DNA from: Trichodesmium sp. MAG_R02
GTDB lineage: Bacteria > Cyanobacteriota > Cyanobacteriia > Cyanobacteriales > Microcoleaceae
Assembly: GCA_023356605.1 (NCBI GenBank)
Contig: JAKQYE010000011.1
Location: 1 to 48,980, forward strand
DNA: 48,980 nucleotides
Direction: 5' to 3'
The notes beneath the pieces were generated by a model. The model saw nothing but the letters and a program-made list of their open reading frames with translations, was not told the origin of the DNA and did not search any database. Of the stretch, positions 2,479 through 31,412 are shown one piece after another. The first letter of the stretch is position 1. Every line of letters begins with the position of its first letter. The position numbers were made by a program, and so were the translations under genes.

Positions 2479-3639
2479 ATGGCCATAATTTCTTCGAAAA
2501 AACAATCTCCTCAACCAGAAAGGCCAGATAAAGACATTCTCTTAGCCTCCGAAAGCCAGACGCCATATAAGCATAAAACGAAAAAATCAAAGTCTCAAGC
2601 TGAAACAGTGGAAGTAGAAGCTTTATTAGAAGCAGAGGCATCTGCTACAGAAAAAAGTGGTGATCAAAATGAGGAAAAAATCCGACCTCAAAGGTTAGAT
2701 GAATATATCGGACAGAAAGACCTAAAAGAGGTGTTGAATATTGCGATTTCGGCAGCTAAATCTAGAAAAGAATCTCTAGACCATTTACTATTGTATGGCC
2801 CTCCGGGATTGGGGAAGACTACTATGTCTCTAATATTGGCAGCAGAAATGGAGGTTAATTGTAAGATTACAACTGCACCTGCTATTGAAAAGCCTAGAGA
2901 TATAGTTGGTTTGTTAGTAGGTTTACAAAAAGGGGATATTTTGTTTATAGATGAAATTCATCGCCTTTCTAAAATGACCGAAGAAATACTTTATCCGGCG
3001 ATGGAAGATTTTCGACTAGATATTACGGTTGGGCAAGGTAAGAGTTCTAAGACTAGGAGTATTCCTCTGAAACCTTTTACCTTGGTAGGAGCAACTACTA
3101 GGGTGGGTTCTTTGACTTCTCCTCTGCGCGATCGCTTTGGAATTATTCAGAGGTTACGGTTTTATGAGGTTGATGAACTGAGTTTAATTATTATCCGAGG
3201 GGCAAAAGTTTTAAATACGGATATTACAGAGGATGGTGCTGAGGAGGTTGCCCGTCGTTCCCGGGGTACGCCTCGAATTGCTAATCGTTTATTGAGGAGA
3301 GTGAGAGATTATTCGGAGGTGAAAAAGTTGACTCCGATAAATGCTGAGGTTGCAGGTGAAGCTTTGGAGTTGTTTAATGTTGACCCTCTGGGTTTGGATT
3401 GGACTGACCGTAATTTACTGAGGACGATGATTGAGAATTATAATGGTGGCCCTGCTGGTTTGGAGACTATGGCTGCAGCGACGGGGGAGGATGCTCAAAC
3501 TATTGAGGAGGTTTATGAGCCGTATTTGATGCAGATTGGATTTATGCAGCGTACTCCTCGTGGTCGGGTTGTGACTTCGGCAGGTTGGAGGCATTTGGGT
3601 TTTAGTCCGCCCGATGAGCAGTTGAGTTTGAAGTTGTAG
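2479..3639 (+). CDS. ruvB: Holliday junction branch migration helicase RuvB
   Basis: RuvB is the AAA+ motor that, with RuvA, drives branch migration of Holliday junctions in recombination and repair. The 386-aa product shows Walker A GPPGLGKT (107-114), Walker B with DEIH (158-161), sensor 1 GATTR (204-208), the Arg-finger context SPLRDRFG (214-221), the [15 protein letters not shown] sensor 2 region and the C-terminal winged-helix end (QRTPRGRV...GWRHLGF). Residues 1 to about 66 form a charged, low-complexity extension ahead of the usual [11 protein letters not shown] start. Typical RuvB proteins are near 340 aa, and extended N-termini occur in cyanobacteria. The start is the only in-frame ATG ahead of the core; its ribosome site is weak. 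It stands alone between IS relics, away from ruvA or ruvC. Confidence 0.95.
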
Positions 3640-8668: not shown

Positions 8669-10636
8669 CTAAATTTGCTCATTCTCTTTATTGGATGAAT
8701 CATTGGATGGAGTTTCATTATTCTTTGTATCCTCTTCATCTTGTTCTAAATCTTCATCTTGTTCTAAATCTTCATCTTGTTCTAAATCTTCATCTTGTTC
8801 TAGATCTTCATTAGGAGAGGTTTCGATATTTCCTGTAGCAAATGAATTATCATGCATTTCTCCTTGAGTATTAGTATTGACTGAAGAATCGTTTAAGCTG
8901 TCATTTGCAGATTTCGCGCTGGCACTTGCGTAATTATTGATTATATTCTGACCTCCTTCTTTTAAGAGATTAGTAATCACAGCAGCCGCTGATGTTTTTC
9001 CTTCAATTATTTTAGAAAAATCGGCTTCACTAATTTGTATTTCGCCATCTTTTTTCGGACTCCAGTCAATACAAGAAATAGTGCAATCTGGATTTAACTT
9101 AATACCACCTCTTTGAGTTTGAAAAAAATTTGCACAATCAAGGATACATTTATTCAGATTTAATAGGGTTAAATCTGCGTATCTAAAATCAACTCCTGTT
9201 AAATTACTATCTTCAAATTCACTACCTCTTAAATTAGCATCGTAGAAGTTAGCTCTCACTAGCTGAGATTTTTCATAAAATTTGGCTTCTATCATTGTTA
9301 CTCGAAGTAACTTTACCTCATTCAAACAGCACTTTTTAAATGTACTACCAGAAATATCAGCATATGAAAGATCCGCTGATTTCATAATTGTGCTAGTAAA
9401 ATCAGTGTTAGAAAATTCACACTTACGAAGTTTAGATTTAAATAAACGTGTGCCTTCAAAGTGACTTTCTTCAATTGTTGTATTTTCACTAATTTCAACC
9501 CGATCCATTAAAGCACCATCAAATTTACATTTACTGATTTTAAATTTACACTGACTAGGAGAATCCGGTTTGACTCCAATATAGCAATCAATTGATTCAT
9601 TATTCTTATCATTTTGCTTATTATTTTTATCTACCTGTGTTCTAAAAGCCTTAAATTTAGAATGAGAAAATATAGTCTCTGAGAACATACAATCGTAAAA
9701 TTTACAAGCTACAAGTGTTGCTAATAAAAAATTAGCATTAGATAAATTGCAATCTTCAAATTTGCTACAAAGTTCGGCTTTTTTGAAACTAGAATCAGTC
9801 AAATTACAATTTTTAAAAATCAGTATTTCATCATTTTCTATTCTCTGTTTATCATAACTGGTAATACAATTATCAAAAGTAGCCTCTTTGAAATTATCAC
9901 ATTGAGAAAACTCAACTTGAGTTAACTTTGAATTATTAAAAGTAGCCTCTTTGAAATTACTACATTGAGAAAACTCAACTTGAGTTAACTTTGAATTATT
10001 AAACTTTGCACGATTAAGATTAGAGTTGAAAAATTTCACCTGATTAAGGTAACTATTAGAAAAATTTACACCTTGAAGTTGAGAGTCAGAAAACTCTACA
10101 TTAACTAACTGGCAGTTAGCACATGAAAATCCATCAAATACTGCTTCCAAATTTGAAAACTTACTATCTACTACTCTAATTCCAAATTCACTACAGTTTT
10201 CCAGAAATATTGTTGGTTCAATAGTATCTAAATCCTCTTGATTAACTTCAGCTTTAAATATTATCCTAACTAAATTATTGCTATTGCTGATTTCTATTTT
10301 ATCTCCCCCTCTCAGTTTACCTGTAGTCGAACTAAGAGAAGTCGGAGTTTTTTGGTCACTATTAGAACTCAGAGAAGTCCTAGTTTTTGGATCAGTATAT
10401 TGACAGAATTTAAAACCATCAACTCTTGACCAAGAAATTCTGATAAAAAACCAGCATTTTGAAGTTAAAGGTAATTGCTTTTTTTCTTTGAAGGATTCCA
10501 CTAATATTTGAGGTTTATTTAGACTACCGTAAACTATTACACTACAAAGATTTCCTTCATATAAATAAGGGACTTCAAAAGGTTCTGGGGCAGGAATTTT
10601 CTGCCCTTTAATTGCAAGAAAAAAACTAATCTTCAT
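8669..10636 (-). CDS. Pentapeptide-repeat protein with acidic tail (intact copy)
   Basis: A 655-aa protein. Residues 1-150 form a unique N-terminal domain (MKISFFLAIKGQKIPAPEPF, then SWSRVDGFKFCQY and a Ser/Thr-rich linker). From about 155 to 510 run many A(N/D/K)LXX/F-type pentapeptides (for example LRGSEFEDSNLTGVDFRYAD), expected to fold as a right-handed quadrilateral beta helix. The tail has a TSAAAVITNLLKEGGQNIINN helix, the HDNSFATGNIE motif and four copies of EDLEQD. The ATG at 10636 overlaps by 11 bases the stop of the 3' fragment of an upstream gene (10626-10628). The same arrangement exists at 13309-13319, which suggests translational coupling. No catalytic motif seen. Function unknown; protein binding at a membrane-associated complex is an inference from its neighbours. 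Confidence 0.85.
   Translation of the reverse strand: MKISFFLAIKGQKIPAPEPFEVPYLYEGNLCSVIVYGSLNKPQILVESFKEKKQLPLTSKCWFFIRISWSRVDGFKFCQYTDPKTRTSLSSNSDQKTPTSLSSTTGKLRGGDKIEISNSNNLVRIIFKAEVNQEDLDTIEPTIFLENCSEFGIRVVDSKFSNLEAVFDGFSCANCQLVNVEFSDSQLQGVNFSNSYLNQVKFFNSNLNRAKFNNSKLTQVEFSQCSNFKEATFNNSKLTQVEFSQCDNFKEATFDNCITSYDKQRIENDEILIFKNCNLTDSSFKKAELCSKFEDCNLSNANFLLATLVACKFYDCMFSETIFSHSKFKAFRTQVDKNNKQNDKNNESIDCYIGVKPDSPSQCKFKISKCKFDGALMDRVEISENTTIEESHFEGTRLFKSKLRKCEFSNTDFTSTIMKSADLSYADISGSTFKKCCLNEVKLLRVTMIEAKFYEKSQLVRANFYDANLRGSEFEDSNLTGVDFRYADLTLLNLNKCILDCANFFQTQRGGIKLNPDCTISCIDWSPKKDGEIQISEADFSKIIEGKTSAAAVITNLLKEGGQNIINNYASASAKSANDSLNDSSVNTNTQGEMHDNSFATGNIETSPNEDLEQDEDLEQDEDLEQDEDLEQDEEDTKNNETPSNDSSNKENEQI
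8733..8804 (-). repeat. Four 18-bp direct repeats within the pentapeptide gene
   Basis: tcttcatcttgttctaaa is repeated four times in frame and encodes EDLEQD units in the acidic tail. The fourth copy has one silent change. Copy number may vary by slippage without breaking the frame. Confidence 0.9.
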
Positions 10637-10853
10637 AACTCTCAATAACTTTACTATCAATAACATCTTTTATCTGTGCTGATATTCTTGAAGGATTATT
10701 CATAATTTCCTCTGTCGTGAATACTAAACTTTGTATTCCTTCCATGCTTTGCTCGTGACTTAATTTAGATTTAAAATTAATTTCATCTTCAGTTTTCCAT
10801 TTTTGATCACATCCTTTTAATTCTTCATCTCGGCAATAAACAACAACATTTTA
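10626..10853 (-). pseudogene. 3' fragment of a second coiled-coil membrane protein gene
   Basis: The minus strand encodes about 75 C-terminal residues (from VVVYCRDEELK to IDSKVIESYED) nearly identical to the end of the gene at 13309-14673. The match stops abruptly at 10853, where it joins the end of the mosaic pentapeptide pseudogene. It is what remains of a duplicated coiled-coil gene after deletion of its 5' part. Confidence 0.9.
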
Positions 10854-10872
10854 GTACTTGTGTGCTATTGTC

Positions 10873-13319
10873 CTATTCATTTTTTGATTTAATATTACCT
10901 AGTTTAATACCACCTCTTTTACTTTTCAAAAAATTGGCGCAATTAAGAGTACATTTATCTAAAGTTAATAGGGTTAAATCTGCGTATCTGAAATCAACTC
11001 CTGTTAAATTACTATTTAAGAATTTACTACCTCTTAAATTAGCATCGCGGAAGCTAGCTTTCACTAGCTGAGACCTTTGATCAAATTCGGCTTCTATCAT
11101 TTTTACTCGTAATAATTTTACCTCATTCAAACAGCAATCTTTAAATGTACTACCTGAAATATCAGCATCTGAAAGATCCGCTGACTTCATAATTTTGCTA
11201 GTAAAATGAGTTTTAGAAAATTCACAATTACGAAGTTTAGATTTGCATAAACCTGTTGCTTCAAAGTGACCTTCTTCAATTTTCGTATTTTTACTAATTT
11301 CAACCCTATTCATTAAAGCACCATCAAATTTACATTTACTAATTTTAAATTCATACTGATTAGGAGAATCCGGTTTGACTCCAATATAGCAATCAAACTT
11401 AATATTATTATTATTAATATCCTCTACTACATATTTAAAATGAGAATTAGAAAATATTGTCTCTGACAATTTACAATTGTAAAATTTACAAGCTACAAGT
11501 GTAGATAAGGAGAAATCAGTTTTAGATAAATTGCAGTCTTCAAGTTTGCTGCAAAGTAAGGCTTTTTTGAAGCTAGCATCATTCCAATTACAATTATTAA
11601 AAATCAGTATTTCATTCTTTTCCAAATTATAAAAGGATTCCACTTTGCTGCAAAGTAAGGCTTTTTTGAAGCTAGCATCATTCAAATTACAATTATTAAA
11701 AATCAGTATTTCATTCTTTTCCAAATTATAAATGGTTCTACAATTATCAAAAGTAGCCTCTTTGAAATTATTACATTGAGAAAACTCAACTTGAGTTAAC
11801 TTTGAATTATTAAACTTTGCACGATTAAGATTAGATTTGAAAAAATTCACCTGATTAAGGTAACTATTAGAAAAATTTACACCTTGAAGTTGAGAGTCAG
11901 AAAACTCTACATTAACTAACTGGCAGTTAGCACATTAAAATCCATCAAATACTGCTTCCAAATTTGAAAACTTACTATCTACTACTCTAATTCCAAATTC
12001 ACTACACTTTTCCAGAAATATGATTGGTTCAATAGTATCTAAATCCTCTTGATTAACTTCAGCTTTAAATATTATCCTAACTAAATTATTGCTATTGCTG
12101 ATTTCTATTTTATCTCCCCCTCTCAGTTTACCTGTAGTCGAACTAAGAGAAGTCGGAGTTTTTTGGTCACTATTAGAACTCAGAGAAGTCCTAGTTTTTG
12201 GATCAGTATATTGACAGAATTTAAAACCATCAACTCTTGACCAAGAAATTCTGATAAAAAACCAGCATTTTGAAGTTAAAGGTAATTGCTTTTTTTCTTT
12301 GAAGGATTCCACTTTGCTGCAAAGTAAGGCTTTTTTGAAGCTAGCATCATTCAAATTACAATTATTAAAAATCAGTATTTCATTCTTTTCCAAATTATAA
12401 ATGGTTCTACAATTATCAAAAGTAGCCTCTTTGAAATTATCACATTGAGAAAACTCAACTTGAGTTAACTTTGAATTATTAAACTTTGCACGATTAAGAT
12501 TAGAGTTGAAAAATTTCACCTGATTAAGGTAACTATTAGAAAAATTTACACCTTGAAGTTGAGAGTCAGAAAACTCTACATTAACTAACTGGCAGTTAGC
12601 ACATTAAAATCCATCAAATACTGCTTCCAAATTTGAAAACTTACTATCTACTACTCTAATTCCAAATTCACTACAGTTTTCCAGAAATATTGTTGGTTCA
12701 ATAGTATCTAAATCCTCTTGATTAACTTCAGCTTTAAATATTATCCTAACTAAATTATTGCTATTGCTGATTTCTATTTTATCTCCCCCTCTCAGTTTAC
12801 CTGTAGTCGAACTAAGAGAAGTCGGAGTTTTTTGGTCACTATTAGAACTCAGAGAAGTCCTAGTTTTTGGATCAGTATATTGACAGAATTTAAAACCATC
12901 AACTCTTGACCAAGAAATTCTGATAAAAAACCAGCATTTTGAAGTTAAAGGTAATTGCTTTTTTTCTTTGAAGGATTCCACTAATATTTGAGGTTTATTT
13001 AGACTGTAGTCGAACTAAGAGAAGTCGGAGTTTTTTGGTCACTATTATAACTCAGAGAAGTCCTAGTTTTTGGGTCAGTATATTGACAGAATTTAAAACC
13101 ATCAACTCTTGACCAGGAAATTCTGATCAAAAACCAGCATTTTGAAGTTAAAGGTAATTACTTTTTTTCTTTGAAGGATTCCACTAATATTTGAGGTTTA
13201 TTTAGAGTACCGTAAACTATTACACTACAAAGATTTCCTTCATATAAATAAGGGACTTCAAAAGGTTCTGGGGCAGGAATTTTCTGCCCTTTAATTGCAA
13301 GAAAAAAACTAATCTTCAT
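10873..13319 (-). pseudogene. Mosaic pentapeptide-repeat pseudogene
   Basis: A relative of the intact gene at 8669-10636, starting MKISFFLAIKGQ at 13319 and overlapping the stop of the upstream coiled-coil gene by 11 bases. It is broken at several points: a CAA to TAA stop after ESFKEKK (~13156), a rearranged junction near 13010 that jumps back to SLNKPQILVESF with a frame change, and TCA to TAA stops after FDGF in two tandem copies (~12603 and ~11937). The tandem copies form a 669-bp in-frame duplication, and a further ~75-bp duplication (YNLEKNEILIFNNCN units) lies at 11560-11720. The last part (10873-11850) is an open 325-codon pentapeptide stretch ending in a new short tail, GGIKLGNIKSKNE. 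Internal ATGs could give shorter products, but no ribosome sites support them. Confidence 0.85.
11636..12973 (-). repeat. 669-bp in-frame tandem duplication
   Basis: Two adjacent copies (12305-12973 and 11636-12304) are nearly identical. Each runs from ESFKEKKQLPL through the N-terminal domain and first pentapeptides to ALLCSKV. The unit is 223 codons, so the frame is kept apart from the shared nonsense codon after FDGF, which must predate the duplication. Confidence 0.85.
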
Positions 13320-22873: not shown

Positions 22874-23599
22874 TTGCCAAAAGTATCCTGTAGTTCTTCA
22901 TCTTTTGCCTCCCAAAAAAAAGAAAAAATTTCTAATTATAAAACCATCAACAATCAATTAATAGATTACCTCCGTAAATATCGTTGTTTACTTATTTTTG
23001 ATAATTTACAAGAAATATTTGCTAGTGGAAAACTAGCTGGTACTTATCTGCAAGAACATGAAAAGTATGGTAAATGTTTTCAACAAATAGCTACATTATC
23101 CCATCAAAGTTGTTTGTTACTCCTGAGTCAAGAACAACCAAAAATAATATCCAGCAATAATCATTGTCAGACTTTAAAACTTGATGGTTTAGGAAGAAAG
23201 TCAGCCTCAGTGATTTTAAAAAGTAGAAACTTAACAGATGAAGAGCAATGGTTAGAGCTGATTAATCTCTATAGCGGAAATCCTTTGTGGTTAAATATTA
23301 TTGCTGATGCAGTGGAAGATTTATGTGATAGAAATGTGACTCAATTTTTATCTTGCCCCAGTATATATTTAGGAGATTTAGAACCGATATTAGAGAGATA
23401 TTTTCAGGGTTTATCAGAGCTAGAAAAACAAGTAATATTATGGATAGCAAGTCAAGAAACAGCAATAGATATTTCTACTACTCCCCCGGATATTCCTCTT
23501 TTGCAATCAGATTTATGGAAAGCAATACAATCATTAAAAAGACGCTGCTTAGTAACAAAAAAAGATAATTTATTATCTCTATTAATTAACCGTGCTTAA
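22874..23599 (+). pseudogene. Truncated STAND (NB-ARC) ATPase fragment
   Basis: About 240 codons remain open but start only at a TTG with no ribosome site. The sequence fits the middle of cyanobacterial NB-ARC/WD40 proteins: LIDYLRKYRCLLIFDNLQEI (Walker B), GTYLQEHEKYGKCFQQIATL, SCLLLLSQEQPKII (sensor 1 region), NPLWLNIIADAVEDL (GxP-type motif) and LSELEKQVILWIA with winged-helix end LQSDLWKAIQSLKRRCLV. The P-loop, the N-terminal effector domain and the C-terminal sensor repeats are missing on the two sides. A remnant of a signalling or defence STAND protein. Confidence 0.75.
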
Positions 23600-23666
23600 A
23601 CAGTATATCAAATCAAATTATTTGCATCAACTAACTTGAATTATCTAGGATACTATTTAGCTGTAA

Positions 23667-23757
23667 TTAGGGCTTACTGAATAAATCAGAAAATGGTTAA
23701 TTTCTTATGCAAAGAAAGTTAATAGTAATTTTTTATTACTATAGATTTATTCAAACC
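23667..23757. repeat. MITE3 copy
   Basis: agggcttactgaataaatc at the left and gatttattcaaaccc at the right form imperfect inverted ends ~90 bp apart. The ends match those of the IS5-type element at 3832-4627, so this is probably its short non-autonomous form. Confidence 0.6.
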
Positions 23758-23849
23758 CATGTTCTGCAGATATTAAAGCAGATTTTATAATTATGAATTT
23801 TGTTGAATATAAAGGCTACAATGGTGGTCAGATAATCATTTAAGTCTAT

Positions 23850-23930
23850 TTATTTTCACTAAAAAACTCCCTTTGTTGCCCAAGGGCATCCCTCAGTAAA
23901 AACTAATTCAAAAAATTACCAAAATCAAGC
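23850..23930 (+). repeat. Isolated fragment of the 193-bp repeat
   Basis: actccctttgttgcccaagg and gcatccctcagtaaaaacta match the central part of the tandem unit found at 25181-28556. The array probably once reached this far and was broken by the IS630 and IS1 insertions between. Confidence 0.6.
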
Positions 23931-24340
23931 AACTGGGAATATAGCAATCCTATTTTATTTGTGGCAAAAATTCCACTGCTTTTTAGGGTACAAAGATGAT
24001 CAAATGCAATCATAAAATTTTTCGTCTGTAACCAAATATCTTCTACAGGGTTTTTTCTGGGGCATTCGGAGCAAATTTCAGACAATTTATCCACCATTTG
24101 TCTTCGGGTTTTTCTTGATTAATTAACTTCAATAATTCTCGAAACTCTTGAGAGTTATGATAACTTGCACCCTCCCCAAATATTGCCAATCTTTTTCCCG
24201 GTCTTTGCTCTTTTAAATATTTAACAAATTCCATAGTATTTTCAGTATTTCCACTTCTTTAATTCTTGCACAATAAATTCCTTAGTTTGATAATAATAGG
24301 CTCGATAATAAGTTTGTATTTCTCTTTCATTTGTGGTAGT
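23930..24340 (-). pseudogene. IS630-family transposase C-terminal remnant
   Basis: The minus strand reads YYRAYYYQTKEFIVQELKK, then after a frameshift MEFVKYLKEQRPGKRLAIFG, EGASYHNSQEFRELLKLINQ, EKPEDKWWINCLKFAPNAPE, and after another shift NPVEDIWLQTKNFMIAFDHL. GASYH is the degraded second Asp context (D.ASYH; here EGASYH) and NPVEDIW the Glu motif. The gene is cut at both ends. A MITE4 fragment lies in its 3' flank at 23938-23985 (tatagcaatcctattttatt). It is a close relative of 1660-1860. Confidence 0.8.
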
Positions 24341-24356
24341 CCTAAAAAGGAAAGGA

Positions 24357-24945
24357 TCAAGCTATAGGTAGTGAGGCATTGTAATGATGGATGAAATTCC
24401 AGATAGCCCCTATATGATTTTCCAGCTTTTTGGAAAAAGATAAGGTCTTGCGCACTAAACGTGAAACTCGTTGCCGTAAAGTACAGTTAAGTCGCTCAAT
24501 GTAACTTGTTTTACCAGTTTCTTTCCCCACAGCTTGATGTCGTTTGCTGGGTAAGACTTCTGCAGCCAGCCGACCAGAAATCTGTATAGCAAACCGCACA
24601 CTGACGATAGACTGCAGGTAACGATTCCCACAGCTTTTGAGCTGAACCCGTAGAACGGTCTCCAATATAGCATCCAATAATTTCACGGGTGTCTACATCC
24701 AGAGCTAACCAGACCCACTGTTTATTTCCTTTATGATCTACAAATGACCATAATTCATCCATTTGTACCTTCAAGCTTCCCTTCCCCTTCGGTTGTACCT
24801 CCAATTGCTCAGAGAACTCTGTGTATTTCTGGTTGACATAATTCTGCAACCATGTTTCTGAGACCTGCGCCACTCTGGCAATTCCAGCCAGGGGTATCTT
24901 CTCAAGTAGCATTTGGTCTATCACCTCTTGGGTTGATTTTGACTA
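24357..24945 (-). pseudogene. IS1-family transposase pseudogene
   Basis: The first open part reads EKIPLAGIARVAQVSETWLQ (HTH), QMDELWSFVDHKGNKQWVWL (first catalytic Asp), DTREIIGCYIGDRS and VYRQCAVCYTDFW. A frameshift near 24580 moves it to PSKRHQAVGKETGKTSYIER, then RQRVSRLVRKTLSFSKKLEN and IHHYNASLPIA. This is the complete order of a cyanobacterial IS1-type catalytic part; the zinc-finger InsA-like N-terminus is missing. Disabled only by one frameshift plus the 5' loss, so it is a recent casualty. Confidence 0.9.
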
Positions 24946-27343
24946 TGAAATAAGTGATAGATATTATTTGTTTGTTTTGGTGAGTTTGGGTTAGGGTTGC
25001 ATTATTCAAACTCCTCCCAAAATCTTGCGATCGCTTAACTAACCCATAGTATAGACTCAGGAAAACTTACTTACAAGTCATTACAATGCTTATTAGTTAA
25101 GGGTTTTAGCGCATTCAGTTAATGCTCCTATTATCCCTCGGCCAGTTTCAGGCAAACTATAATTAGTCTAAACTCCAAATCTGAGTCACATCTGCCGAAT
25201 TTTAATTTTTACTGAAATAACTCCCTTTATCGCCTCAGAGCATCCCTCAGTAAAAACTCATTTAATTAAATTACTAAATTCCCCATATTTTTTGAGATTA
25301 ACAGTTAATATTAGCCAGGAAAATTAGGAGAATAAAATTTTTCTGGATGGAATTTTTCAAAAATATCCATAATCTGAGTCACATCTGCCGAATGTAGATT
25401 TTTACTGAAATAACTCCCTTTATTGCCTCAGAGCATCCCTCAGTAAAAACTCATTTAATTAAATTACTAAATTCCCCATATTTTTTGATATCAACAGTTA
25501 ATATTAGCCAGAAAAATTAGGAGAATAATTTTTTTTTTGGATAGAATTTTTTAAAAATATTTATAGTCTGAGTCACATGTGCCGAATGTAGATTTCTACT
25601 GAAATAACTCCTTTTATTGCCCAAGAGCATCCATCAGTGATAACTCATTTAATTAAATTACTAAATTCCCCATATTTTTTGAGATTAACAGTTAAGATTA
25701 GCCAAGAAAATCAGGAGAATCAAATTTTTATAGATGGAATTTTTTAAAAATATCTATAATCTGATTCACATCTGCCGAATGTAGATTTTTACTGAAATAA
25801 CTCCTTTTATTGCCCAAGAGCATCTATCAGTGAGAACTCATTTAATTAAATTACTAAATTCCCCATATTTTTTGAGATTAACAGTTAATATTAGTCAGGA
25901 AAATTAGGAGAATTAAATTTTTCCGGCTGGAATTTTTCAAAAATATTTATAATCTGAGTCACATCTGCCGAATGTAGATTTTTACTGAAATAACTCCTTT
26001 TATTGCCCAAGAGCATCTATCAGTGAGAACTCATTTAATTAAATTACTAAATTCCCCATATTTTTTGAGATTAACAGTTAATATTAGTCAGGAAAATTAG
26101 GAGAATTAAATTTTTCCGGCTGGAATTTTTCAAAAATATTCATAATCTGAGTCACATCTGCCGAATGTAGATTTATACTGAAATAACTCCTTTTATTGCC
26201 CAAGAGCATCCATCAGTGATAACTCATTTAATTAAATTACTAAATTCCCCATATTTTTTGAGATTAACAGTTAATATTAGTCAGGAAAATTAGGATGATC
26301 AAATTTTTCCGGCTGGAATTTTTCAAAAATATTCATAATCTGAGTCACATCTGCCGAATGTAGATTTATACTGAAATAACTCCTTTTATTGCCCAAGAGC
26401 ATCCATCAGTGATAACTCATTTAATTAAATTACTAAATCCCCCATCTTTTTTGATATAAACAGTTAATATTAGTCAGGAAAATTAGGATAATCAAATTTT
26501 TCCGGCTGGAATTTTTCAAAAATATTCATAATCTGAGTCACATCTGCCGAATGTAGATTTATACTGAAATAACTCCTTTTATTGCCCAAGAGCATCCATC
26601 AGTGAAAACTCATTTAATTAAAATACTAAATTTCCCATATTTTTTGAAATTAACAGTTAACATTAGCCAGGAAAATCAGGAGAATAAAATTTTTATAGAT
26701 GGAATTTTTTAAAAATATCTATAATCTGAGTCACATCTGCCGAATGTAGATTTTTACTGAAATAACTCCTTTTATTGCCAAAGAATATCCCTCAGTGATA
26801 ACTCATTTAATTAAATTACTAAATTTCCTATATTTTTTGATATAAACAGTTAATATCAGCTAGCAAAACTAGTGAAATAAAGTTTTTTTTGCTGGAATTT
26901 TTCAAAAATATCCATAATCTGAGTCACATCTGCCGAATGTAGATTTTTACTGAAATAACTCCTTTTATTGCCCAAGAGCATCCATCAGTGAGAACTCATT
27001 TAATTAAATTACTAAATTCCCTATATTTTTTGAGATTAACAGTTAATATTAGCTAGCAAAACTAGTGAAATAAAGTTTTTTTTGCTGGAATTTTTCAAAA
27101 ATATTTATAATCTGAGTCACATCTGCCGAATGTAGATTTTTACTGAAATAACTCCTTTTATTGCCCAAGAGCATCCATCAGTGAGAACTCATTTAATTAA
27201 ATTACTAAATTTCCCATATTTTTGGAGATAAACAGTTAATATCACCTAGCAAAACTAGGGAAATAAAATTTTTATGGCTGGAATTTTTCAAAAAATATCT
27301 ATAATCTGATTCACACCTGCCGAATGTAGATTTTAGCTGAAAT

Positions 27344-28279
27344 AGACCTCTCCAAAATAAAAATTCAGCTATAATTATAGAGTCGATTTTGTAAAATAAT
27401 ATACTGAAGAATAAATTATTATAAACTTTATACTATTTACATCATATACCAACATTTAAAATACTAGGAATTAACTTTGGAGTAAGTGAATCCACTGCTA
27501 ACAATATCTTTCATTATTGGGTAGATGTACTGAGAGAATTATTCCCACCAAGTTTGTTACAACAATTATCAGAAAGAGAAGATGAATATTTATATATACA
27601 AGATTTTTTAACAGAACAATAATTAATTTTAGATAGCACAAAACGAAATAAAAATAGGCTAAATTACAATAAAAAGCAAAAAAAATATTATTCTGAAAAA
27701 AATCAAAATCATATATTTAAAAATCAAATAATAAGTACTATTAAGCACCATAAATAGTAGATGTAAATGTGGCATAAAAAGGGCCAAAAAGTGATATTAA
27801 CTTACTTAAAAAACAACAAAAAAAATTGATAAAAATCAAAAATTTTAGGAATATAAAGCCTATGAATGGGCCTCAATAACTACCAGACAAAAAAAGCCAA
27901 TAAAAAAAGAAATACCGCATTAAATGAAAGAAGAAAATCTGAAAAAAAGCGAAAAAAATAATATTTGTAGAACATGTAATTAGATTGATAATTTTTTTTA
28001 TTAGCCAGGGAAAGGTTCAGATCAAGAAATAATAATTATCAAAAAGTAATTCTAACAATATGTGGATTGATTAGATTAAGAAGAGGAAGCTTAATTTTAG
28101 TATAAAATCAAAATAATTGAATAAAAAAACAAAAAAAAAGAGGCAATAAAATATTGATTTATTAATAATAAATACTCCAAATACTTATAATAGCCTACAA
28201 TTAGCCAATGCATACTTTACAATTATTAAGAGGCTTTAGTCAAGGGAAAGAATGGTTTTGCAAATTTTTGGAGATGTCT
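27344..28279 (+). mobile_element. IS5-family element (decayed) inside the repeat array
   Basis: The ends agacctctccaaaa and ttttggagatgtct are inverted, and AAT flanks both sides. Removing the element rejoins the repeat unit exactly (gaaat + aactcc). The inside reads HIPTFKILGINFGVSESTAN, FHYWVDVLRELFPPSLLQQL, a stop, LILDSTKRNKNRLNYN, KNQIISTIKHHK and further broken frames to LTICGLIRLRRGSLI, the layout of IS5/ISL2-group transposases. Many stops make it inactive. Confidence 0.85.
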
Positions 28280-28335
28280 AATAACTCCCTTTATTGCCCA
28301 AGAGCATCCCTCAGTAAAAACTCATTTAATTAAAT

Positions 28336-28426
28336 CAGGACTTACGCACAGGCACTATATCTAGTGGGGGCGAATGCCATTTACCCCTACATATGGCGTT
28401 TTAAAGGTTGATTTGCGTAAGTCCTG
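28336..28426. repeat. MITE2 copy inside the twelfth repeat unit
   Basis: caggacttacgcac ... tgcgtaagtcctg, flanked by TAAAT on both sides (28331-28335 and 28427-28431). The 193-bp unit without it reads straight through. This defines the element ends and a 5-bp target duplication. Confidence 0.9.
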
Positions 28427-28754
28427 TAAATTACTAAATTTGCCATATTTTTTGAGATAAATAGTTAACATCAGCCAGGAAAATTAGGGAAAGAAAATTT
28501 TTCTGGCTGGAATTTTTCAAAAATATCCATAATCTGAGTCACATCTGCCGAATGTGAGTTGGAAATTGGTTTACAGCAGTTTTCATCTTGGTAGACTACA
28601 GTAGGGACGTTTCGCTACGGGACATGAAACGCATTTTTGTTATGCAATGTCCCTACAAGGTTTTGGTTATGGCGATGTAGTTCATCAATTAAGTAGCGCT
28701 GTAATTGCTAAAAGCTGATACTAGTTACCGAAAAAATTGGCTTTACAGCGGTTT

Positions 28755-29595
28755 TCATATGAATAAACCACAGTGTTCAAACCAACCCATGGTATAATCT
28801 TCAGTAATTTGAGCGATCGCGCTTACTAATAACTCGATCCAATTGTTCTGAAGTTCGAGGCTGATAAGAACCGAGGAAATTTTTAAATTTTGACCAGCTA
28901 GATTCCATAGGTGACTCTCTCTGGAGAGTAGGCTGGGTGTGAATATTAATTCGGCTCCTGCTGAGTTAATCAAGTCTTCAATTTCGTAGTCCTTTATGAA
29001 CAGTTAAATTATCCATCAATACAATTGCTTAAGCGCCATAATTGAGGTACTAAAATTTGCTCTACATATGTTTCAAACACGTTTTTATTTGTACTACCAA
29101 TTACCGTCATTGATGCTATTTACGCCATCCAGGCTTAAGGCTCCTAAGACACTTGTATTTCTACCTTTATTTAATGGAGCATTACTGATTACTCTCTCTC
29201 CTACTTTTCCTCGACCATAAAGACGAGTCATTCCCAAATTTATTCCTGAAATTTCCACAAAAACCAAATTATTTATGTCTACGATCATCCAGCCATTTTC
29301 TATACTCATAACGTTTTTGCTTAATATCTTCTCTCTCTTGGAAGGGAAGCACAAATACTTTTTTTTTCTACTTATATTAATTTTTTTGAAAATTCTATAC
29401 ATTGTTGATAGACTAACTTTTACTCCTGTTCTAATTTCTAAATATTCCCATAATTCACAAAGTAAAATATCTGGTTTTTGTTGAATTTTATGCGCTCATT
29501 AAAGAATCAAAATTAGCCTCAAATTTAGACCAATGGTCCTCCTCCACGTTGCTTTGGATTCACAGTTCCTGTGGTTCAATAATGCCGTAATAAAT
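28755..29595 (-). pseudogene. IS630-family transposase remnant, third subgroup
   Basis: The minus strand has, in order, KPDILLCELWEYLEIRTGVK, SLSTMYRIFKKINISRKKK (HTH part), a first-Asp-region context changed to VFVEISGINLGMTRLYGRGK (FVDESG is usual, Asp is lost), ERVISNAPLNKGRN, a decayed middle with stops, and NSAGAELIFTPS (end motif), after which the frame shifts. The catalytic Asp substitution, stops and frameshift show a dead copy. Confidence 0.75.
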
Positions 29596-29849
29596 TACGG
29601 ACAAAAGTTAAACGTTCCTTGAAACCTTTGTGCTATTTGACGTTGAGAACCTTCTTGGTCTTGATAGGCCCATTACACAGGTCGGCCTAAATTTTGTGAA
29701 TATGGTCTGGCCATTTTTGTGGTTTAGCGATCGCTCGATCTGGAAAAAGCCCTGGCCCATAAGCGGGCGACTTTTTAGTTTATTTTTTTTCACAGGTTAT
29801 GTCCTTCTTCCTTTTTAGTTTACAAGAAATATATTAGTCGCAGGTGGGG
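29596..29849. other. Short stretch, nothing recognised
   Basis: No gene is supported. One HIP1 site lies at 29727. Confidence 0.3.
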
Positions 29850-30000
29850 AATCCGAGATAAAAAACGGACAGGTCGGCCAGCATAAGACTACTGCCAAAG
29901 TAGCAGCAGCCTGTGAGATGTAAACCCGCCGAAGGGCTGTAGTTCGGTTGTGTTTCCCCATGCCTAAAAGCCGGGGAGGATGTCAAAAGACCTAGCAACC
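29850..30000 (-). mobile_element. Relic of an IS200/IS605-type element end
   Basis: The minus strand begins TTTTGACATCCTCCCCGGCT and carries ATGGGGAAACAC, then a GC-richer, hairpin-rich stretch ending CGGATTCCCCACC. TTGAC followed by CATCCTCCCCG is the usual border pattern of IS605/IS1341 elements in cyanobacteria, and the structured part may be a former omega-RNA region. No coding part remains. Confidence 0.35.
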
Positions 30001-30005
30001 AAACA

Positions 30006-30043
30006 AAAATGTAGAGAAATTCCATAGAACATCTCTACATTCT
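30006..30043 (-). terminator. Intrinsic terminator after opcA
   Basis: On the minus strand AATGTAGAGA and TCTCTACATT form a perfect 10-bp stem around a ~14-base loop, followed by TTTTGTTT. It lies about 45 bases past the opcA stop and would end the zwf-opcA transcript. The T run on the other strand (ttctttttct) is weaker. Confidence 0.75.
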
Positions 30044-30089
30044 TTTTCTAGAAAAAATTAAATTTAGGATATATTTCGTATTGCTAAAA

Positions 30090-31412
30090 TTAACGTAACT
30101 TAAGAATTTCAGTAGTTACAGCTAAACTATCTTCATACAAAACCTCTCGTCCCCAACGTTGTAACTGTTGAGCCATCAAATATTCCGCCTTCTGATCGCT
30201 TAAAGCACTTACCTGCTCTGTACGACAAGACTGGGCACTACCACCAGCCTCCAATCGCATACAACCATTAGTTTCAGAACATAAAATGGTACAACAATCT
30301 GCATTGGGATTACTAGAATCCAAACGTAAGCCCACTAAATCTCCTGGTATTTCACCATAGTCAGCAGTAGAAATTGCTGCCAACTCTGCTAAAATCTCCT
30401 TATTATTAGGACTGACAAACTTAATATGAATGATGTCATAATCACCACCAGTTTCAGTATAAGTTATAGGTTGCCAATCAAGACGACTGGCAAACCAACT
30501 TAAGAACATTAATGCTTGAGATATATTACCTTTCTCATAGTCAAGAGTAATGGTGTCAATTTCAGCAAGAGAAGCGCGACGCTCTGGAGGGTCAAAAGTC
30601 GCAGCAGTTAACTCTTGCCATGCAGAGAGACGATGCCAATTTAAATCAGCAATATAGGTTTTATTCTCAATCAACTCCACCATTTTGAGAAATTCTGATT
30701 CTGGGTCGCTAAAATAAGATGAATCTAGAATAATACAGTTGCTAGTTTTACACAGGCAACGGAAAAGTTCTTGTTCTGGGTTGGGAGTGGCTTTCCACCA
30801 AACAAACTTGGGCAGGTCAGGAATCATTAATGATGTAACTACATTGCTCACCCGTTCCAGGGCTTCTTTAGTTCCCCGTAGAGTGATGTATTCACAACAA
30901 ATTAGTGAAGACTGCTTTTTCTGCACTGGGCAGTAAGCAGAAACTTGAGCTGTTACTCCTGTATCTTCTCCGAAGGTAGGACACAATGTAATAACCCGAC
31001 AAGGATTTTGAGCTGCGATAACTTCACTTACACTAAATCCCCTGATATCTATATTAGGGAATTGCTTATTTTCCAGTGATTTGGCAGCCCACTCTGAACG
31101 TAACTTGGCAAGAGTTTCAGAATCTACTCTGCCTGTTATTGGTAATCCATATGCCTTTTGAGCTTCTTTAATAGCTCCACGAGCTGCTCTTCCGTTAATA
31201 CCGTCTATTTCACCCTTGTAAAATCCTAAACCAGCTAAAAGTTGCTGGAATTCTTCGGGTTCATATACCACCATACTAAAAGTGGCTGCTCTGGTGGCAA
31301 TTGAAGTTGACTTCCCTCCATTTTGACTGAGCCAGATTTTATTTAGTTCTGCCTCAATTTCACCCAGAGATATGTCTTTTGGTTGTTGTAAAGCGACAAG
31401 TGTTGTACTCAT
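30090..31412 (-). CDS. opcA: Glucose-6-phosphate dehydrogenase assembly protein OpcA
   Basis: OpcA is a cyanobacterial allosteric activator/assembly factor that binds G6PDH and makes it active for the oxidative pentose phosphate pathway. The 440-aa product has the family hallmarks (PNIDIRGFSVSEVIAAQNPC, DLPKFVWWKATPNPEQELF, LNWHRLSAWQELTAATFDPP, VSALSDQKAEYLMAQQLQRW). Residues ~52-105 (FQQLLAGLGFYKGEIDGING, TGRVDSETLAKL) look like a peptidoglycan-binding-type helical module, unexpected in a cytosolic protein but seemingly built into the family. Several Cys occur, including NPCRVITLCP and LICCEY. It lies 196 bases downstream of zwf on the same strand; a gap that size allows its own promoter. 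A terminator follows. Confidence 0.95.
   Translation of the reverse strand: MSTTLVALQQPKDISLGEIEAELNKIWLSQNGGKSTSIATRAATFSMVVYEPEEFQQLLAGLGFYKGEIDGINGRAARGAIKEAQKAYGLPITGRVDSETLAKLRSEWAAKSLENKQFPNIDIRGFSVSEVIAAQNPCRVITLCPTFGEDTGVTAQVSAYCPVQKKQSSLICCEYITLRGTKEALERVSNVVTSLMIPDLPKFVWWKATPNPEQELFRCLCKTSNCIILDSSYFSDPESEFLKMVELIENKTYIADLNWHRLSAWQELTAATFDPPERRASLAEIDTITLDYEKGNISQALMFLSWFASRLDWQPITYTETGGDYDIIHIKFVSPNNKEILAELAAISTADYGEIPGDLVGLRLDSSNPNADCCTILCSETNGCMRLEAGGSAQSCRTEQVSALSDQKAEYLMAQQLQRWGREVLYEDSLAVTTEILKLR

Follow-up and report, generated by a model that had tools for sequence, protein, structure and literature searches.

The 12-unit array described here, which lies in a window of 48,980 nucleotides from Trichodesmium sp. 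MAG_R02, is very probably a satellite-like structure in which the right end of an IS1634-family insertion sequence has been amplified in tandem, each unit of ~193 bp corresponding, as judged from sequence comparison, to part of the non-coding tail of the element plus its right terminal inverted repeat. There is good support for what the unit is, strongest over the 3' two thirds. A first-pass annotation had proposed three functions or origins for the array, namely a series of identical small RNAs, a protein-binding or chromosome-organising array and a selfish satellite, and only the last of the three fits the results below.

Tandem Repeats Finder placed the array at 25174-27344 (period 193, 11.2 copies, 92% matches). 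The head TCTGAGTCACATCTGCC, or a variant of it with one or two changed bases, occurred 12 times from 25180 to 27305 in steps of 193 or 194 and once more at 28533, which confirmed the previously reported spacing of 193 with 194 at two places and a unit length that is not a multiple of three. When the units were cut at ACTGAAATA, eleven unbroken units were obtained from 25211 to 27335 (nine of 193 bp and two of 194 bp), and the twelfth began at 27336. The twelve units counted earlier are therefore real, but eleven of them are unbroken and the twelfth consists of three pieces separated by two inserts; the span given for them, 25181-28556, holds a periodic array from 25174 or 25180 onwards but also about 1 kb that is not array (the element at 27343-28280 and the insert at 28336-28426). 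The array unit ends in ATCTGCCGAATGT, and each of the units u1-u11 ends in CTGAGTCACATCTGCCGAATGTAG or a variant of it, followed by a short A/T-rich joint. The features of the locus are as follows.

25180..25210, plus strand: left array edge, right inverted-repeat tail of an earlier unit that was lost or truncated (from sequence; the model match at 25158-25202 is weak, E 0.116)
25211..27335, plus strand: eleven uninterrupted tandem units u1-u11 of 193 or 194 bp each
27336..27343, plus strand: opening bases of unit 12, ahead of the inserted element (from sequence)
27343..28280, unstranded: transposable element remnant of ~938 bp that splits unit 12, inverted ends TAGACCTCTCCAAAA / TTTTGGAGATGTCTA, HTH_Tnp_4 remnant at 27452-27619 (E 1.4e-10)
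28280..28335, plus strand: middle piece of unit 12, 93% identical to the typed consensus
28336..28426, unstranded: 91-bp insert within unit 12, inverted ends CAGGACTTACGCA / TGCGTAAGTCCTG, similar stretches in a Trichodesmium copy of the unit (L023)
28427..28556, plus strand: 3' piece of unit 12, with which the array closes; its terminus is the inverted-repeat end CACATCTGCCGAATGTG (pattern match 28542-28556)

The array opens with the tail of a unit (25180-25210) and so appears to have been truncated on the left. The window is one entire contig (G000:C13) of a draft genome of 6.77 Mb in 537 contigs (92% complete), and the exact copy number of the array therefore rests on the assembly.

A search for the unit elsewhere, which the first-pass annotation had suggested, gave a divided answer: the unit was found at one locus in its own draft, but related copies were present in three further genomes of Trichodesmium and in ten from other genera. 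In the own genome blastn (E<=0.001) found no unit outside the window, and all 15 pieces matched lay inside it. Whole-unit blastn against 59 genomes, including the own, gave matches in five, namely the own genome, G004 and G005 of the same genus, and G052 and G058 weakly (41 bits); the weak matches of 40-41 bits were those in G052, G058 and G005:C454, and no convincing match was found outside Trichodesmium by this search. Records of Trichodesmium erythraeum GBRTRLIN201 and Trichodesmium sp. MAG_R03 were matched by a unit-derived pattern. A sequence-only model built from the final 124 nt of the unit, with the first 62 nt left out, added one copy in G006 and a third copy in G004 (among 150 candidates scored per genome, matches with E 0.0049 and above being excluded from the counts). 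There were five non-tandem Trichodesmium copies in three other genomes, and their flanking genes were all different. Among 54 genomes outside Trichodesmium, ten held a total of 15 matches to the same model at E<=0.001 (among 58 candidates scored per genome), all starting at model position 12 or later, and the ten genomes belong to two other genera of the same family. We inspected the ends of all 15 outside matches and found GAATGTGGGT in ten, GAATGTGGTA in one, GAATGTGCGC in two and GAACCTGCGC in one, while one match had no end; four of the matches, all in G078, sit within 11-12 bases of the end of a contig, as expected of multi-copy elements. A profile made from the array units alone, 12 in number, recovered 19 of the 20 dispersed copies (E<=0.0031, best reversed-control match E 0.047), which is a check of the signal and not an independent discovery, because the 20 copies had been preselected by a related model. 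The 5' limit of the unit-like part varied between copies.

At three of these loci (L116, L118 and L120) a common stretch of ~2.0-2.1 kb upstream of the end encodes an IS1634-family transposase, with NF033559 matches of E 9.7e-106 in L118 and E 1.3e-79 in L116, and with L120 being 89% identical to L118. The left end of the element reads CCCACATTCCGCAGAT in L118, in L116 CCCACATTCTGTAGAT, and is a mirror image of the right-hand ATCTGCGGAATGTGGG; no left end was seen in L120. In the reversed L118 sequence the frame of the transposase ends at 3150 and the right end of the element lies at 3433, leaving a tail of ~283 nt between gene and end, and by position the 193-nt unit would equal the last part of such a tail. 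The conserved head TCTGAGTCACATCTGCCGAATGT of the array units is the terminal inverted repeat of an element of the IS1634 family. Moreover, directly upstream of two of the three copies in Trichodesmium G004 there are transposase scraps: a C-terminus (E 6e-11) lies ~100 nt ahead of the unit-like part in L024, and a scrap with E 2e-4 abuts the match in L084. Among the 20 dispersed copies the transposase was full or nearly full beside three, present as scraps beside four and not found beside eight, and five copies were too close to a contig start; the scraps at L119 and L123 are weak (E about 1e-4, 250-500 nt away), and L115, the locus of these two in a further genome, is one of the eight without a scrap. 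It is only the Trichodesmium copies L023, L024 and L083 that link the 5' part of the unit to the insertion sequence. As a separate observation, a piece of an ISKra4-like transposase (L118 326-1072; 201.5 bits against a cut-off of 205) adjoins the IS1634 element of L118, which was possibly inserted into it.

A complete, mobile IS1634 element is absent at the array locus, which has neither a transposase match nor a left end: tblastn (E<=1e-3) gave no IS1634 transposase match in the window, and on the plus strand of 23501-30500 no left end was found with up to 7 edits, apart from one poor match. The IS1634 transposase gave 94 matches in the own genome, of which the ones listed are fragments, and a stretch of G000:C124 resembles the tail directly upstream of the unit in L023 (E 1e-16, with a high-copy element excluded from the query); relatives of the IS1634 element therefore occurred in this genome. 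It holds no further exact copy of the 15-base end, and other matches of the 124-nt model in it had E>=0.019 among the candidates scored, so that the local parent element is deduced from relatives.

Pairwise identity between units was 84-99% (with unit 12 joined across the inserts together with a few flanking bases). The distance between units grew with their separation in the array (Spearman rho 0.44, p 0.001, unit order permuted): adjacent units differed by 7.3% and all others by 10.5%, u4 and u5 differing by 1%, and the largest mean distances belonged to u12 (3' piece alone) and u2, both close to the edges. This is the pattern that slippage or unequal exchange would leave. An exception to the neighbour similarity is the pair u3 and u8, which are mutually nearest despite a gap of five units, as block duplication or conversion would leave them. 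The array, being non-coding and head to tail with neighbouring units on average more alike, has the make-up of a bacterial satellite or long tandem repeat. We propose that a copy of the insertion sequence was once present at the locus and lost its left part, that the right end would then have been duplicated head to tail, and that the duplicates would have expanded and been partly homogenised through slippage or unequal recombination; a second transposable element and the 91-bp insert would have entered unit 12 later.

The first-pass annotation had taken conservation without coding as a sign of function. The conserved blocks do exist, since TTTAATTAAAT is present in 11 of the 12 units and the head recurs, but they are explained by recent duplication and by the end of the insertion sequence, and the argument is weak where the units are mutual duplicates and the head is such an end. 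Variable columns were somewhat clustered along the unit (dispersion p 0.02), which could mean some constraint on it, but the longest unchanged run was not of unusual length (p 0.22). In our view the array is most likely repeat debris without a function, which is the default reading of negative evidence. That the host, whose genome is rich in IS1634 fragments, has co-opted these tandem IS right ends, be it as a decoy titrating the transposase of IS1634 elements or as an array of promoters or RNAs derived from the tail of a mobile element, is very improbable.

No reading frame is common to all 12 units, in agreement with the non-coding nature claimed for them. A minus-strand open reading frame of 41 aa is full length in six of the 12 units; in the other six it has 31-37 aa in three (one without ATG) and 2, 2 and 9 aa in three, and plus-strand frames within units reach 25-36 aa at most. 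The 41-aa frame was rejected as a gene, as it is intact in those six units only and is not retained in the nearest relative copy, L023.

A small-RNA gene array with one promoter per unit, like NsiR1 of Nostoc, is a very improbable reading. It would share the layout of 12 tandem copies of which the central ones are more alike than those at the edges, as described for NsiR1 (PMC9045159), and a TATAAT-like box, CTATAAT or CATAAT, stands directly ahead of the inverted repeat in units of the array. Against it, Rfam (E up to 1, span 24500-29000) gave no match, and one unit folded no more stably than its shuffles (z-scores by strand 0.80 and 0.08, with 158/200 and 100/200 shuffles folding at least as well). 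The covariance comparison proposed earlier showed almost no covariation: changes on both sides were seen in 2 of 13 predicted pairs in an alignment of 15 copies and in 1 of 29 in the 11 unbroken units, both as raw counts. In addition, the array has 0 terminator-like sites, and its 15 promoter-like sites are below the mean of 20.7 in shuffles and so no excess; hetF was not named among the domains of the 20 window proteins scanned, and the unit is already accounted for as an IS end. The sequence tests thus provide nothing that supports a structured or separately transcribed RNA, and the suggested series of small RNAs is not supported by Rfam, folding, covariation, terminators or promoters.

Very improbable, too, is an array acting at the DNA level, with protein-binding or chromosome-organising sites such as parS-like sites, sites for a nucleoid protein or a sink binding transposase. 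The near-constant spacing speaks for it, and every unit bears an IS inverted-repeat end, in principle a putative binding site for transposase. Nevertheless, no parS-like site was found in the window at up to 3 mismatches, and the 15-base IS end, being without exact copy elsewhere in the genome, has no obvious partner element. The position of the array argues in the same direction. It sits 3' of an opcA-zwf-tal-fbp cluster, and the four relatives that have this opcA share with the window no stretch of at least 60 bp farther than ~110 bp past the gene (0.4, 6, 9 and 9 kb compared); the array thus showed no conserved position at this locus and is not datable from it. The chromosome-organising reading is not supported.

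We give least weight to a mobile repeat in its own right, a MITE or similar, inserted as tandem copies by its own mechanism, and consider it highly improbable. The non-tandem dispersed copies in three other Trichodesmium genomes favour it, yet the unit has a right inverted-repeat end only, whereas a MITE has two ends, and the variable 5' limit of the copies is expected of remnants of an IS right end and not of a moving unit. An origin from an IS200/IS605-type element or a TnpB guide RNA was set aside once the transposase proved to be of the IS1634 family, and a phage or virus origin was rejected, the exact 26-base unit junction not being found in viral_contigs.

With the amplified IS right end as the preferred reading, the array can be compared with known systems. 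Its unit matches the last part of the non-coding tail and the right inverted repeat of IS1634-family insertion sequences (NCBIfam NF033559), from which the array differs in having no transposase and no left end, only 12 tandem ends. The BrickBuilt minisatellite-MITE of Porphyromonas gingivalis (PMC4596501) is likewise a tandem repeat in intergenic sequence derived from a transposable element, but has a 23-nt unit, 19 occurrences in the genome of one strain and a flanking leader and tail, in contrast to the 193-nt unit, single locus and IS right end of the Trichodesmium array. NsiR1 of Nostoc has twelve tandem copies as well, the central ones most alike; it is a transcribed RNA of ~60 nt whose copies lie upstream of hetF and have a promoter each (PMC9045159), features that were not seen for the Trichodesmium array. 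The bacterial tandem repeats of Subirana and Messeguer (PMC8161180) are also non-coding, with units of 20-21 or 52 nt and, in the sections seen, no mobile-element origin given, whereas the origin of the present array is traceable. At the level of titles and abstract openings we did not meet this array in the literature, which is no proof of its being unreported.

A long bacterial satellite thus has a traceable origin in the end of an insertion sequence. Trichodesmium is noted for 40% non-coding DNA (PMC4649490), and the array gives a concrete example of how part of this large fraction can arise. It is also a warning that regular spacing and conserved blocks of non-coding sequence are no evidence of function when the units are mutual duplicates. 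As a by-product of mobile elements the array is unusual, yet it can be understood.

Other repeats and genes were observed in the window and the own genome. About 250 bp to the left of the array, at 24357-24924, lies a broken IS1-family transposase in two overlapping open reading frames with DDE_Tnp_IS1 matches. To the right of the array, 28570-28703 of the window holds, as does 8378-8494 of L023, a repeat element whose ends look inverted by eye (TTACAGC.. / ..GCTGTA), with at least 43-71 matches per genome in 7 of the 7 Trichodesmium genomes searched, a few of them to other parts of the query. The own genome contains other long-period arrays of unassigned origin, with periods of 128, 357-359 and 487 bp in L148 (G000:C498:12500-17500), 284 bp in L149 (G000:C51:2500-5500) and 190-327 bp in L150 (G000:C25:12000-15000); these loci had been chosen for the clustering of another repeat and so indicate the occurrence of such arrays, not their frequency, and they are unrelated to the 193-bp unit except for a 14-base match in L149. 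Two OpcA paralogues, 74% identical, are encoded at 30090-31412 of the window and at G000:C124:26844-28175, and in the window OpcA a peptidoglycan-binding domain precedes the OpcA domains. Finally, 8669-11850 of the window encodes pentapeptide-repeat proteins, in whose coding sequence DNA repeats of 18, 63 and 99 bp occur.
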